From: Kineothrix sp. MB12-C1
Lineage (GTDB): Bacteria > Bacillota > Clostridia > Lachnospirales > Lachnospiraceae
DNA: 64,000 nucleotides
NCBI RefSeq assembly: GCF_030863805.1
Contig: NZ_CP132957.1
Span: forward strand, 2,480,001 to 2,544,000
Direction: 5' to 3'
Shown: in pieces, positions 1-63,866 of the stretch
Numbering within the stretch: position 1 is the first letter of the stretch
How the letters are laid out: each line of letters begins with the position of its first letter
Position numbers and translations under genes: made by a program
Notes under the pieces: model-generated
Seen by the model: the letters and a program-made list of their open reading frames with translations, nothing else
What the model was told of the DNA's origin: nothing
The model's database searches: none

Positions 1-836
1 TTAAGACTTGCTTCGCTCCCCCTCATCCGGATTTTGCCCACGGCTATATGGATGGCCTGTCTCTTCATTATTATGTACATCCGGAAGGCTGGGAGATTAA
101 GGGTAGTGCCACGGAGTTTGACGATAAGGTGTGGTATAAGACCTTGGCGAAGGCGAAATACATGGAAGAACTGGTAGAGCGCCATGGTGCTATTATGGAT
201 CAGTATGACCCGGACAAGAAAATCGGAATGATTGTAGATGAATGGGGATGTTGGTTCAGCGTGGAGCCGGGTACGAATCCTGGATTCCTTTATCAGCAAA
301 GTACAATGAGAGATGCGTTAGTAGCGGGTGTCACATTGGATATTTTCAACAAGCATTGTGATAGGGTGCAAATGGCATGTATCGCACAGATGATAAATGT
401 ACTTCAATCGGTAGTGTTGACGGAGGGAGAGAAGATGGTTCTTACTCCTACCTATCACGTATTTCATATGTATAAACATCATCAGGATGCAGATCTTGTT
501 GAAAGTTTCGTGGAAGGGAATAAGACCATTGGTGTGGGAGAGGAGTATCAAGTACCTCTTTTGAGCGAATCAGTATCTGTTGATAAGGAAGGTTATGTGA
601 ATATTACGATTAATAATCTGTCTGTTTCTGAAAATGTACCGGTGGAAGTGGCATTTGCAGAACTGACTCCTTCCGAGATCGAAGCATCTGTGCTCACACA
701 GGAGATGCGTGCGCATAATACCTTCGAAGACCCGGAGAAGGTAAAAGAGGAAGAACTTACCGATTTCGTCGTTGAAGATAGGAAGATTAAGTTCACCGCT
801 CCTGCATGTAGCGTTGTTAGCTTCCGCGTAAGGTAA
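1..836 (+). CDS. alpha-L-arabinofuranosidase, GH51 (5' truncated by window edge)
   Basis: C-terminal part of a GH51 arabinofuranosidase, which removes alpha-L-arabinosyl groups from arabinan or arabinoxylan oligosaccharides. The frame is open to the window edge (codons start at base 3), so the true start lies upstream. [10 protein letters not shown] begins at base 48, and VDEWG at about 234-248 carries the Glu that is the nucleophile in GH51. The tail is the beta-sandwich domain typical of the family. No secretion signal can be judged. The importer that follows at 1437 may carry arabino-oligosaccharides, which is inference. The first 15 residues before MDGLSLHYY look unlike the segment usually found there. 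Confidence 0.9.
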
Positions 837-843
837 ACATGAA

Positions 844-859
844 GTAACTGAACAGTTAC
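844..859. repeat. minimal palindrome GTAACTG-AA-CAGTTAC
   Basis: A perfect palindrome with 7-bp arms around AA, between the GH51 and DUF6171 genes. The arms match the ends of the 148-bp palindromic element described at 48558 and 63408, so this may be an end-only remnant. Confidence 0.6.
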
Positions 860-23980: not shown

Positions 23981-24012
23981 ATAACTATTCAGTGAGAGTA
24001 CTGAACTGTTAC
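23981..24012. repeat. short derivative of the dispersed palindromic element
   Basis: ATAACTATTCAGT and ACTGAACTGTTAC surround a 6-base centre. Both arms match the ends of the 148-bp element. It lies in the lgt leader. Confidence 0.65.
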
Positions 24013-26000: not shown

Positions 26001-26029
26001 GTAACTATTCAGTAGGTCTGAGCAGTTAC
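26001..26029. repeat. short derivative of the dispersed palindromic element
   Basis: GTAACTATTCAGTAGGTCTG followed by AGCAGTTAC. The first 20 bases match one end of the 148-bp element at 19 positions, and the last nine resemble the other end, as if the centre had been deleted. Confidence 0.68.
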
Positions 26030-47707: not shown

Positions 47708-48553
47708 ATGTATCAAGCTGGTCTTATTTTAGAAGGCGGCGGTATGAAAGGAGTTTATACTGCCGGTGTCTTGGATTTTTTTCTCGATAAGGAAATAGAA
47801 TTCTCCTCTTGTTATGGAGTATCGGCAGGTTCCTGTCATATGTGCAGTTATTTGTCGAAGCAGAAGAAACGTGCTTACCGCATCGCGGTAAACTATCTGG
47901 AACACAAGAAGTATTGTAGCCCATATAGTCTGCTCACGACTGGAGATCTATTCGGGGTGGATATGTGCTATGATTTAATTCCGAATTATCTGGATCCTTA
48001 TGATTATGACGCTTTCAATCAATATGAGGGAAAAGCATATACTGTTGTGACGAATATCCGAACCGGACAAGCAGAGTACATACAGCTTAAGGATATGCAC
48101 AGAGATATTATTGCAGTACGTGCGTCCAGCTCCATGCCGCTCGTATCGCGCAATGTGAAGATCGGAGATGAGCTATATCTGGATGGGGGAATTGCGGATT
48201 CCATTCCGATTAAAAGGTCAATACAGGATGGGAACGAGAAAAATATCGTTATAATGACGAAAGAGGACGGATATCATAGAGAACCTTCTTCCAGTCTTTC
48301 CTTTGTAAAAATGCGCTATATTAAGTATCCGAAGATATATGAACGGATGAAAGAAAGGCACAAGGAGTACAATGAGACTTTGGACTTCTTGGCACAGCAA
48401 GAAGAAGAGGGTAAGGCCTTCGTTATCCGACCTAAAAAGGTGAGTGAAGTAGGAAGGGTGGAGAAGGACAGAAAGAAGTTGGAAGCTTTATATGAAGAAG
48501 GTTATAGGGACGCAGAAAGCCGTTATGTGGAACTTTTGGAGTATTTGTCCTGA
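47708..48553 (+). CDS. patatin-like phospholipase (YjjU type)
   Basis: Serine lipid acyl hydrolase of 281 residues. The oxyanion loop GGGMKG is near residues 11-16, the nucleophile elbow GVSAG contains Ser39, and the dyad Asp159 is in LDGGIAD. Length and order fit the bacterial YjjU-like patatins. An AAAGGAAA site precedes the ATG. The true substrate is unknown. A 148-bp palindromic element follows 4 bp after the stop. Confidence 0.9.
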   Translation: MYQAGLILEGGGMKGVYTAGVLDFFLDKEIEFSSCYGVSAGSCHMCSYLSKQKKRAYRIAVNYLEHKKYCSPYSLLTTGDLFGVDMCYDLIPNYLDPYDYDAFNQYEGKAYTVVTNIRTGQAEYIQLKDMHRDIIAVRASSSMPLVSRNVKIGDELYLDGGIADSIPIKRSIQDGNEKNIVIMTKEDGYHREPSSSLSFVKMRYIKYPKIYERMKERHKEYNETLDFLAQQEEEGKAFVIRPKKVSEVGRVEKDRKKLEALYEEGYRDAESRYVELLEYLS

Positions 48554-48557
48554 TTTT

Positions 48558-48705
48558 GTAACTGTTCAGTACCCTCACAGTTACAAAAGCAAAGATTGCT
48601 TTGTGAAAATCCATTAAAATCACCTTCGGTGATGGGATTTTCACTTGCTTTCCTAAGTATTCTTACGGTCAGCGCAGCAGATGCGCAGACCTGCTGAATA
48701 GTTAC
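48558..48705. repeat. 148-bp dispersed palindromic element, copy 1
   Basis: Imperfect 12-bp terminal inverted repeats (GTAACTGTTCAG and CTGAATAGTTAC) enclose several nested stems, including GTGAAAATCC/GGATTTTCAC around CACCTTCGGTG with a UUCG-type loop. The reverse complement of this whole stretch is found at 63408-63555 with the same length and about 17 mismatches by eye. It lies between the patatin gene and uppP. Small open frames inside it are by-products of the repeat. Confidence 0.85.
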
Positions 48706-48904
48706 TTGATTTGTTTCATGAATACATGGAGAAATAAAAGAATAGATTTCGTTATATATTATAATATGATATCAGGGGTAAAAGGTCATGTGTTTTAGAA
48801 TTTCGAGAGCACAAAGTGCGCAGTAACCCGTAGATATCAGCCCCAACATCATAATAATAAGGGGAGACGAGATTGGATTATGCGTCTTCCAAGGAGGTTT
48901 AAGG
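48706..48904 (+). promoter_or_regulatory. possible structured leader of uppP
   Basis: TATAAT at 48760-48765 suggests a transcript start near 48771. The leader of about 130 bases can form GATATC/GATATC (48769-48774 with 48833-48838), a small GCAC/GTGC hairpin and a GGGAGACG/CGTCTTCC stem (48862-48869 with 48883-48890) that ends directly at the AAGGAGG ribosome site. GGGG at 48861 can instead pair with CCCC at 48841. No known riboswitch class was recognised. The rest holds no gene. Confidence 0.45.
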
Positions 48905-57053: not shown

Positions 57054-57080
57054 GTAATTATGAAGGTGCTGAACAGTTAT
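57054..57080. repeat. degenerate short copy of the palindromic element
   Basis: GTAATTATGAAGG followed by TGCTGAACAGTTAT. The right arm matches the element end well; the left arm is degenerate. It lies in the prmA leader. Confidence 0.45.
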
Positions 57081-58916: not shown

Positions 58917-58943
58917 GTAACTGTTCACTCCGTGAACAGTTAC
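58917..58943. repeat. perfect short copy of the palindromic element
   Basis: GTAACTGTTCAC, TCC, GTGAACAGTTAC: a perfect inverted repeat with 12-bp arms. It lies between rsmE and the cysteine desulfurase gene and could form a stable hairpin about 20 bases ahead of that gene's ribosome site. Confidence 0.75.
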
Positions 58944-61965: not shown

Positions 61966-63342
61966 ATGAAAAGTGTAGCATTACATAACCTGGGGTGTAA
62001 GGTGAATGGATATGAACTGGACGTAATGCAACAAATGTTACAAGAAAAGGGATATAATATTGTATCTTTTGATGAATGGGCGGATATATATATCGTTAAT
62101 ACATGTACTGTGACAAATATTGCAGATAGAAAGAGCAGGCAAATGCTCCATAAAGCACGCAAATTGAACCCTAAGGCAGTGGTGGTAGCTGCAGGCTGTT
62201 ATGTGCAGACCGGCAAGGAAGATATTATCAAAGATGTGGGCGTAGATTTGGCGATTGGGAATAATAAAAAGAAAGAGCTTGTCTCTATTCTGGAAAAATA
62301 TCTGGAAGAGTGCGGCAAGGGAGAAAGTGGAAAAGCAAACGAAAAAACGAATGAAGAAACAGAAGTCGGACTCTGGAATGAAAAGACGCTGGATGATACG
62401 ACGATTATCGATATAGGAAGCATTAGTGAATTCGAAAATATGGAGCTGAAAGAGACTTCCGGGAATACCCGCGCTTATATTAAGGTGCAAGATGGCTGTA
62501 ATCAGTTCTGCTCTTACTGCATTATTCCTTATGCGAGGGGCAGAGTGAGAAGTCGAAGACAAGAAGATGTTCTTCAAGAAATCACAGGGCTTGCAAAGCA
62601 TGGTTATAAAGAAGTAGTGTTAACAGGAATTCATATCAGCTCTTATGGCGTTGATTTCGGAGCGCCTGCGCTTCCGGAACTTATAAAAGCCATTCATGAA
62701 GTGGAAGGAATTGAAAGAATTCGTTTAGGTTCCCTGGAACCCGGAATTATTACGGAGGAGTTTGCAGAGAAACTGCGTATACTTCCTAAGTTCTGTCCGC
62801 ATTTCCACTTGTCTCTTCAAAGTGGCTGTGATGAGACTTTGAAAAGAATGAATAGGAAATATACCTCAGGGGAATACTACGAAAAAGTGAAGCTTTTACG
62901 TCGGACCTTTGATAATCCGGCTATTACTACTGATATTATCGTAGGATTTCCGGGAGAAACAGAAGAAGAATTCCAGATCACAAGAGCATATTTAGAGAAG
63001 ATAAAGCTCTATGAAATTCATGTTTTCAAGTACTCCAAGAGAAAAGGCACCCGTGCGGCGGAAATGGAACATCAGGTAACGGATGAAAAAAAGACGCAGA
63101 GAAGTAATATACTTTTGGCAATGGAGAGAGAGAATTCTACAAGTTATAGAGCGGAATACATAGGAAGAGAAATAGAAGTACTGTTCGAGGAAGAGAAAGA
63201 GATAGATGGAGTGCTCTACCAGACAGGCCATACTGCACAATATGTAAAGGCGGCGAAGAGGGCTGAAGGGACCTTATCCAATCAATTGATAAGCGGTAAA
63301 GCAGTAGGCTTTTTGCAGGGAGATATCTTGCTCATGGAATAA
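61966..63342 (+). CDS. mtaB: tRNA (t6A37) C2-methylthiotransferase MtaB
   Basis: Radical-SAM enzyme that converts t6A to ms2t6A at tRNA position 37. It has 458 residues: UPF0004 domain with Cys in LGCKVN, VNTCTVT and AAGCYVQ, a radical-SAM cluster CNQFCSYC near residue 165, and a C-terminal TRAM domain. An insertion rich in Lys/Glu (about 125-140) lies between the first two domains. The start at 61966 follows GTGAGGA; the frame extends four codons back to a GTG within that site. Confidence 0.94.
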   Translation: MKSVALHNLGCKVNGYELDVMQQMLQEKGYNIVSFDEWADIYIVNTCTVTNIADRKSRQMLHKARKLNPKAVVVAAGCYVQTGKEDIIKDVGVDLAIGNNKKKELVSILEKYLEECGKGESGKANEKTNEETEVGLWNEKTLDDTTIIDIGSISEFENMELKETSGNTRAYIKVQDGCNQFCSYCIIPYARGRVRSRRQEDVLQEITGLAKHGYKEVVLTGIHISSYGVDFGAPALPELIKAIHEVEGIERIRLGSLEPGIITEEFAEKLRILPKFCPHFHLSLQSGCDETLKRMNRKYTSGEYYEKVKLLRRTFDNPAITTDIIVGFPGETEEEFQITRAYLEKIKLYEIHVFKYSKRKGTRAAEMEHQVTDEKKTQRSNILLAMERENSTSYRAEYIGREIEVLFEEEKEIDGVLYQTGHTAQYVKAAKRAEGTLSNQLISGKAVGFLQGDILLME

Positions 63343-63407: not shown

Positions 63408-63555
63408 ATAACTATTCAACAGGTTTGCGCATTTACTGCGCTGACCGTAAGAATACGTGGAACAGTAAGTGAAAATCCCACCACCGAAGGTGATTTTAAT
63501 GGATTTTCATAAAGCAATCTTTGCTTTTGTAACGGAGAGGGGACCGAACTGTTAC
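63408..63555. repeat. 148-bp dispersed palindromic element, copy 2 (inverted)
   Basis: Starts ATAACTATTCAACAGG and ends CCGAACTGTTAC. It is the reverse complement of 48558-48705, equal in length, without gaps, about 131 of 148 bases identical by eye. It lies between mtaB and ireB. Internal TTTTAATGGATTTTCA produces a short spurious reading frame shared with copy 1. Confidence 0.85.
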
Positions 63556-63596: not shown

Positions 63597-63866
63597 ATGC
63601 AGGATTTTGGTAATACACAATTTTTTAACGTGGAGACGGAACCGGAGACAGGTGTGGAAGTAGTTTTGTCTACCGTATATGAAGCATTGACTGAGAAGGG
63701 GTACAACCCTGTGAATCAGATTGTAGGGTATATTATGTCCGGAGACCCAACATATATTACGAGCCATAAAAGTGCGAGAAGCCTTATTATGAAAGTGGAG
63801 CGAGATGAATTAGTAGAAGAGCTGCTTACCAAATATATTGAGGCGAAGCGCTGGAAGAATGGTTAA
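63597..63866 (+). CDS. ireB: IreB-family regulatory phosphoprotein (UPF0297)
   Basis: 89-residue protein of the IreB/YrzL family. NTQFFNVE near the N terminus contains the Thr region that is phosphorylated by the PASTA kinase in Enterococcus, and [20 protein letters not shown] and [14 protein letters not shown] are the family signature. In enterococci it reduces cephalosporin resistance; role here unknown. It precedes ruvX, the standard Firmicute order. Confidence 0.95.

Follow-up and report, generated by a model that had tools for sequence, protein, structure and literature searches.

The 64,000-nucleotide stretch of the Kineothrix sp. MB12-C1 chromosome analysed here (contig NZ_CP132957.1, positions 2,480,001 to 2,544,000; hereafter the window) contains twice, in opposite orientations, a 148-bp palindromic sequence. 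The locus raises the question of whether this sequence is a mobile repeat, and of which kind, or a structured RNA with a function of its own. The original prediction, made from the letters of the window, had described it as a MITE-like or REP-type element, or a structured RNA spread by one.

Structure of the element and its relatives in the window

Aligned with the reverse complement of copy 2 (63408-63555, minus strand), copy 1 (48558-48705, plus strand) differs at exactly 17 of 148 positions, and no gap is needed. The first copy lies 4 bp 3' of a patatin-like ORF (end at 48553) and 199 bp before uppP, and the second between an MtaB-like ORF ending at 63342 and an ORF starting at 63597, in agreement with the intergenic, gene-free location first proposed. 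The minus-strand 96-aa mechanical ORF that overlaps copy 2 is not taken for a gene. Just downstream of copy 1 (48755-48850) lies a second, unrelated dispersed repeat, and sequence related to it (81-90% over parts) is present in three further stretches of the host genome (L059, L005 and L216).

On the plus strand of copy 1, the predicted terminal inverted repeats are found as GTAACTGTTCAG (48558-48569) and CTGAATAGTTAC (48694-48705), which pair with each other. The left one opens hairpin I (48558-48584), a 27-bp unit that also occurs alone as a solo insertion. It is followed by an extra stem-loop (48586-48602), present in the 148-158 bp versions of the host and not in the 131-135 bp versions, by hairpin II (48603-48644), which has an asymmetric bulge and a UUCG-type loop, and by hairpin III (48667-48691; GGTC-GCGCA...TGCGC-GACC). 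The predicted CACCTTCGGTG loop is present inside the element. When folded, all four strands of the two copies beat 200 of 200 shuffles, with z-values of -7.4 (top) and -5.4 (bottom) for copy 1 and -4.5 (top) and -3.8 (bottom) for copy 2.

Hairpin I, the bulged hairpin II, hairpin III and the closing ends are common to 40 full elements from many species. In their alignment the 12-bp terminal inverted repeats are paired in 95.6% of cells, and this terminal helix is conserved in sequence, with no covariation. Across the 31 modelled pairs, 95.5% of cells pair and 14 pairs show double changes, all of them in hairpin II (8 of 14 pairs) and hairpin III (6 of 9) and none in hairpin I. The covariation score was 0.249, against a shuffled mean of 0.090, and was reached by 0 of 500 shuffles; the number of further pair types, reached by 485 of 500, was not above shuffles. 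Within the host, one pair of hairpin I occurs both ways (T-A 44 and A-T 9, of 64). What is conserved is thus the sequence of the ends and the fold of the interior, the inner hairpins presumably being retained since their pairing matters. Paired stem changes could come from templated repair within palindromes as well as from selection.

The window also contains relatives that the original prediction overlooked. Four sequences in the window fit the 27-bp left-end pattern with up to 3 mismatches, as against none in 100 shuffles. A solo hairpin I of 27 bp (57054-57080, minus strand) is flanked by a perfect 8-bp duplication, GTTCTTTT on both sides, and a 32-bp internal-deletion derivative (23981-24012, minus strand), in which the left end is fused to the right end, has a duplication matching at 7 of 8 positions; a control scan of the reversed window gave no counterpart of either. 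A 27-bp perfect palindrome with the same termini (58917-58943, plus strand) has duplication-like flanks (6/8), the flanks of a 29-bp derivative joining left and right ends (26001-26029, minus strand) match only at 5/8, and a diverged hairpin-I-like sequence with 3 mismatches (833-859, minus strand) shows no duplication.

Copy number, target-site duplications and distribution

The host genome is a single contig of 3.94 Mb, and the element is far from restricted to the two copies first seen. A blastn search with the 148-bp sequence gave 43 matches, some of them partial, the left-end 27-mer with up to 3 mismatches gave 157 and the right-end 39-mer 66, the backward control of both patterns giving 0. 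A covariance model built from the 40 elements (E up to 0.01; 150 of 2220 candidates scored) gave at least 126 matches, 55 of them strong (E 1.4e-10 or better); as the contig ends repeat each other, a few copies near the ends are counted twice. Copies 1 and 2 score 137.9 and 107.7 bits with this model. In the host, elements flanked by a duplication of at least 7/8 measure 131-158 bp or 27 bp, so that 148 bp is one length class among several. Three 135-bp copies of one subfamily, at distant sites (L253, L254 and L255), are identical by eye and in score, with duplications of 7/8, 8/8 (ttaataac) and 6/8, respectively, which points to recent movement.

The gene arrangements around the copies vary from copy to copy. 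With ORFs called by a simple longest-ORF rule, a position relative to ORFs could be assigned to 44 of the 55 strong copies, the other 11 lacking a stretch with a 1-kb flank on each side; five of the 44 overlap an ORF by at least 87 bp and the others by at most 58 bp. A 6S RNA gene (L003, 1250-1441; Rfam 74 bits) ends 59 bp upstream of one full element. GC skew changes sign at 1.88-2.06 Mb and at 0.08-0.26 Mb (20 samples), which would place the host origin near 2.0 Mb. The top strand of the element is then opposite to the leading strand in 44 of all 55 strong copies (p = 9e-6). It is antisense to flanking codirectional genes in 25 of 30 copies, a count in which replication and transcription are confounded, just one copy lying between lagging-strand genes; of the 14 copies in convergent or divergent intervals, 11 are oriented against the leading strand (p = 0.057).

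The duplications expected of a transposed element flank most of the full elements examined. Among those of other species (n = 67) the flanking octamers match at 8/8 in 36 and at 7/8 in 8 (44/67 at 7/8 or better), and among those in host stretches (n = 28) at 8/8 in 12 and at 7/8 in 8 (20/28). Duplicated octamers are AT-rich, with a tendency towards T and then C or T as the last two letters. These counts cover the 116 of 125 sites with the required 300 bp of downstream sequence, and 'partial' sites that have inner sequence and no right end (7 in other species, 11 in the host) were left out of both the full and the solo counts. Because an exact match to the 27-mer pattern was the selection criterion for the other-species set, that set gives no measure of how conserved the 27-mer is. 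Neither window copy has a clean duplication. At copy 1 the probable left (48550-48557) and right (48706-48713) duplications, identified by flank comparison on the plus strand, have decayed to 6/8 (CTGATTTT / TTGATTTG), and at copy 2 none is clear. In another stretch (L054, 851-1133), a full element lies beside a second end-bearing sequence, with the octamer AATAAAAG before, between and after both, as in repeated insertion at one site.

An empty orthologous site was found for copy 1. All 15 other genomes of the genus have uppP; in 14 of them the neighbouring patatin gene is readable (in the fifteenth, uppP is near a contig edge), and in each of these 14 relatives the patatin-uppP interval is without the element. 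Conservation at the same site, the mark of a fixed RNA gene, is therefore not what is seen at copy 1. When the covariance model was run on the patatin-uppP loci with E up to 1, the host gave the sole match; in one relative (G007) the alignable part of the interval passes through the copy 1 site without the element. The interval of another (G011, L332) holds a short piece resembling the right end of the element, which may be a separate old insertion.

Model matches occur in 13 of the 16 genomes of the genus, host included, with 1 to 143 per genome. Beyond it, the 27-mer pattern was found in at least 119 stretches of a species-genome collection. By record title, the 80 listed among these belong to Lachnospiraceae, Clostridiales, Eubacteriales, Clostridia or an unspecified bacterium, including the Lachnospiraceae genera Blautia, Oliverpabstia, Eisenbergiella, Murimonas, Coprococcus, Roseburia and Acetatifactor; one is a Clostridium sp. 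metagenome bin. Judged by these matches, relatives of the element occur in many Lachnospiraceae. The full 148-bp query, which is too specific for the wider family, gave 0 matches in 25 genomes outside the genus and none in a plasmid search. It matched four unannotated faecal phage records, three of them over most of its length at 72-73% identity.

Candidate partner transposases

The GTAACTRTTCAG ends of the element and its 8-bp duplication match those of divergent IS66-superfamily transposons of Lachnospiraceae, whose transposases have the PF03050 domain, several with an N-terminal PF20042/DUF6444 domain; the element was therefore filed as a non-autonomous IS66-type MITE. The most complete evidence comes from a 2358-bp element (L234/L310) that encodes a 558-aa PF03050 transposase between the ends GTTACTGTTCACACCC and GTTACTGTTCAGACGC, has GTTACTGTTCA ends and is flanked on both sides by the duplication GCCGGAAT. 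At L241, an IS66 transposase (NCBIfam 222.6 bits, cut-off 180) lies between GTATCTGTTCAGAACCCCC and GTAACTGTTCAGAACCCCC; the L234 and L075 transposases fall below that cut-off. In the host genus, the end GTAACTATTCAG at L069 adjoins a PF03050/DUF6444 gene. L241 and L069 carry GTAACTGTTCAGAACCCC and GTAACTATTCAGAACCCC, exact 12-mer matches to the two ends of the element. Two contigs of one genome (L240 and L244), whose outer flanks share ATTGTATT, probably hold one element split between them, and a GTAACAGTTCAG-like end marks a boundary common to L075, L083 and L087. Only two elements in the 17 partner-candidate loci, L234 and the L240/L244 pair, show a matching duplication; L238, L241 and L068 have two ends each and no matching duplication, and no partner candidate has the exact end GTAACTGTTCAGTACC.

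The pattern GTAACTNTTCAGAACCCC was found in 23 of 397 genomes of the family, with no control match among the matches listed. Its loci include transposase-side ends at L347, L355 and L354 (the last being the end of L241); the L347 gene is backed mainly by DUF6444, its PF03050 score being under the cut-off. In other Lachnospiraceae, elements of 142-197 bp with GTAACTRTTCAG-like ends and perfect 8-bp duplications were observed at six loci (L334, L340, L345, L349, L352 and L359). In one further genome (G057; L343, L361), at least five contigs share the GTAACTGTTCAGAACCCC end, each time about 105-126 bp from the contig edge, the pattern that a long element in many copies would leave if its body did not assemble; a PF03050 search of this genome gave no match.

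The search for a transposase with matching ends was thus successful elsewhere in the family, and in the host genome neither PF03050 nor DUF6444 gave a match. Within the reach of these searches, the copies in the host are currently orphans. The other particularly copy-rich genome of the genus, G011 (143 model matches), likewise has no PF03050 or DUF6444 match, its assembly being only 87% complete, and the genus members with DUF6444-type genes have 1 (G013), 2 (G008) and 26 (G003) model matches, so that in this genus the presence of the gene and the number of copies do not go together. A host without the transposase gene and a copy number independent of it are the main weakness of the partner link.

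Other sources of a partner were considered. Classical IS66 was rejected as the partner, the host having no PF03050 match and the classical ends differing from those of the element: classical copies of the genus and family with both ends found read GTAASYGTCAAATA (L073, L276 and L291), and another classical end (L063) reads GTAAGCGCTCAATAA. An apparent autonomous element in the host, with left and right ends about 2.7 kb apart in two places, was set aside, as these stretches (L093 and L094) hold ordinary genes. The same stretches (6-11 kb and 3.903-3.908 Mb), where the contig start repeats the contig end and many reading frames are broken, look like overlapping, poorly polished contig ends. A scan of 233 loci for end pairs 260-7000 bp apart with duplications gave a sole pair of 283 bp, at L054. 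A general end-pair scan of 44 loci gave four, namely two classical elements (L276 and L291), L310 and a poor pair at L304 that was discarded. No relative was confirmed in viral contigs scanned with the L241 transposase, and three insertion sequences of another genome (G158) have ends other than those of the element.

Taken together, these features make it probable that the element is a gene-less MITE moved in trans by divergent IS66-superfamily transposases (PF03050) encoded elsewhere in Lachnospiraceae. A divergent IS66-type enzyme would recognise the conserved ends GTAACTGTTCAG / GTAACTATTCAG and would insert the element where the two target strands are cut with an 8-bp offset, at AT-rich sites often ending in ..TC or ..TT; joining at such staggered cuts would leave the 8-bp duplication.

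Alternative explanations and known systems

The covarying inner hairpins, the fold z of -7.4 and the orientation bias would also suit a structured RNA that has a cellular role of its own and was spread by a mobile element, its hairpins being selected as RNA. We regard this as quite unlikely, however: the copy 1 site is empty in relatives, neighbouring genes vary between copies, further pair types are not raised over shuffles, and templated mutation within palindromes could give paired changes too. Rfam gave 0 matches in the window at gathering score and, with E up to 1, none over the element in three loci. The original proposal of a structured RNA spread by a mobile element is in line with the covarying inner hairpins, but has no match to a known RNA family behind it. 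Short and mostly extragenic palindromes, in more than 100 copies and with an orientation bias relative to replication, are likewise compatible with mobilisation of a REP/REPIN-type element in single-stranded form by a tyrosine transposase (RAYT). Fixed 8-bp duplications are unexpected for that mechanism, however, and the ends read GTAAC or ATAAC, not the GTAG tag; given the duplications, this origin is highly improbable, and the label 'REP-type', taken in the RAYT sense, is not supported, whereas 'MITE-like' is upheld by the copy number, the terminal inverted repeats, the duplications, the empty site and the transposase-bearing elements with matching ends.

Two other readings concern the 27-bp hairpin. 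It could be the basic mobile unit, inserting alone, with the long elements as composites built on it. The solo termini GTAACTGT/ACAGTTAC are proper ends, and solo flanks match at 7-8 of 8 positions at exactly +27 in 24 of 42 solos of other species (0/588 at neighbouring offsets) and in 8 of 24 solos of the host (2/336), which indicates that many solos are discrete insertions or insertion remnants. Their duplications are nevertheless more decayed than those of full elements, perfect ones being rarer in other species (9/42 solos against 36/67 full elements, p = 0.001) and, at a level that is not significant, in the host (5/24 against 12/28, p = 0.14), so that solos look older. Intermediate deletion forms of 32 bp (7/8), 69 and 78 bp (both 8/8) and 86 bp (7/8) keep the duplication, and AGTTAC, found where hairpin I ends, recurs at the right end, so that a single slippage deletion yields exactly 27 bp. 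The last base of the 27-mer is T in 2 of 50 solos and 0 of 118 full elements, which are small numbers. On this evidence a deletion origin is favoured, the 27-bp solos would be remnants of full elements, and a basic 27-bp unit is rather unlikely. It is still somewhat less likely that an IS66-type enzyme captures or inserts the element at replication forks in the form of a folded single strand, that this is why selection maintains the fold across Lachnospiraceae, and that the 27-bp hairpin is able to move alone. If true, this would account for the paired stem changes, the conservation of the ends in sequence only and the bias against the leading strand, and the 27-bp hairpin, which bears both termini, would be among the smallest transposons known.

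No paper describing the element was found among titles and abstract openings of the open-licence literature on Lachnospiraceae MITEs, palindromic or dispersed repeats, IS66 with MITE, and IS66 ends; the end 12-mers turn up in 16 papers, whose titles point to primers or markers. In the main text of the MITE review PMC10969869, a term search gave no occurrence of IS66 or Clostridi-. We classify the element as a new MITE family, of IS66-superfamily type and widespread in Lachnospiraceae. For gut members of this bacterial family it provides a widespread mobile repeat whose ends and duplications are clear and for which a group of candidate transposases can be named. Two questions are raised, namely why the inner stems stay paired in a parasite for which the ends alone should suffice, and how insertions of 27 bp flanked by target duplications come about.

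REPs carry a GTAG tag, fixed target-site duplications are not expected of IS200/IS605-type transposition, and the small dispersed repeats (SDR) of Nostoc are mobile and about 20-27 bp long. REPs and REPINs are described as small palindromes with a high copy number outside genes in PMC3116915, where SDRs are also named. The element resembles REPs and REPINs in all these respects and differs from them in its 8-bp duplications and its ends without the tag. With the Nostoc repeats it shares a mobile form of about their size, but its 27-bp form is nested in a larger element, from which it is probably derived.

For the IS66 family, an 8-bp duplication and a terminus beginning GTAA are described, and classical ends are given as GTAAGCG (PMC11946415) and also as GTAAGCGTCCGG (PMC12888890). 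The element has both the 8-bp duplication and a GTAA terminus, and PF03050 superfamily transposases are found with the same ends. Unlike classical IS66 it reads GTAACTG, which is shared with the divergent group only, and it has no transposase, its candidate partner group being itself divergent. With MITEs it shares a short, gene-less and non-coding body, terminal inverted repeats, duplications of fixed length, many copies, an empty site (at copy 1 only) and ends common to autonomous, transposase-bearing elements; unlike them, its interior consists of three hairpins, two of which are conserved in pairing across species, and its 27-bp solo derivatives are frequent.
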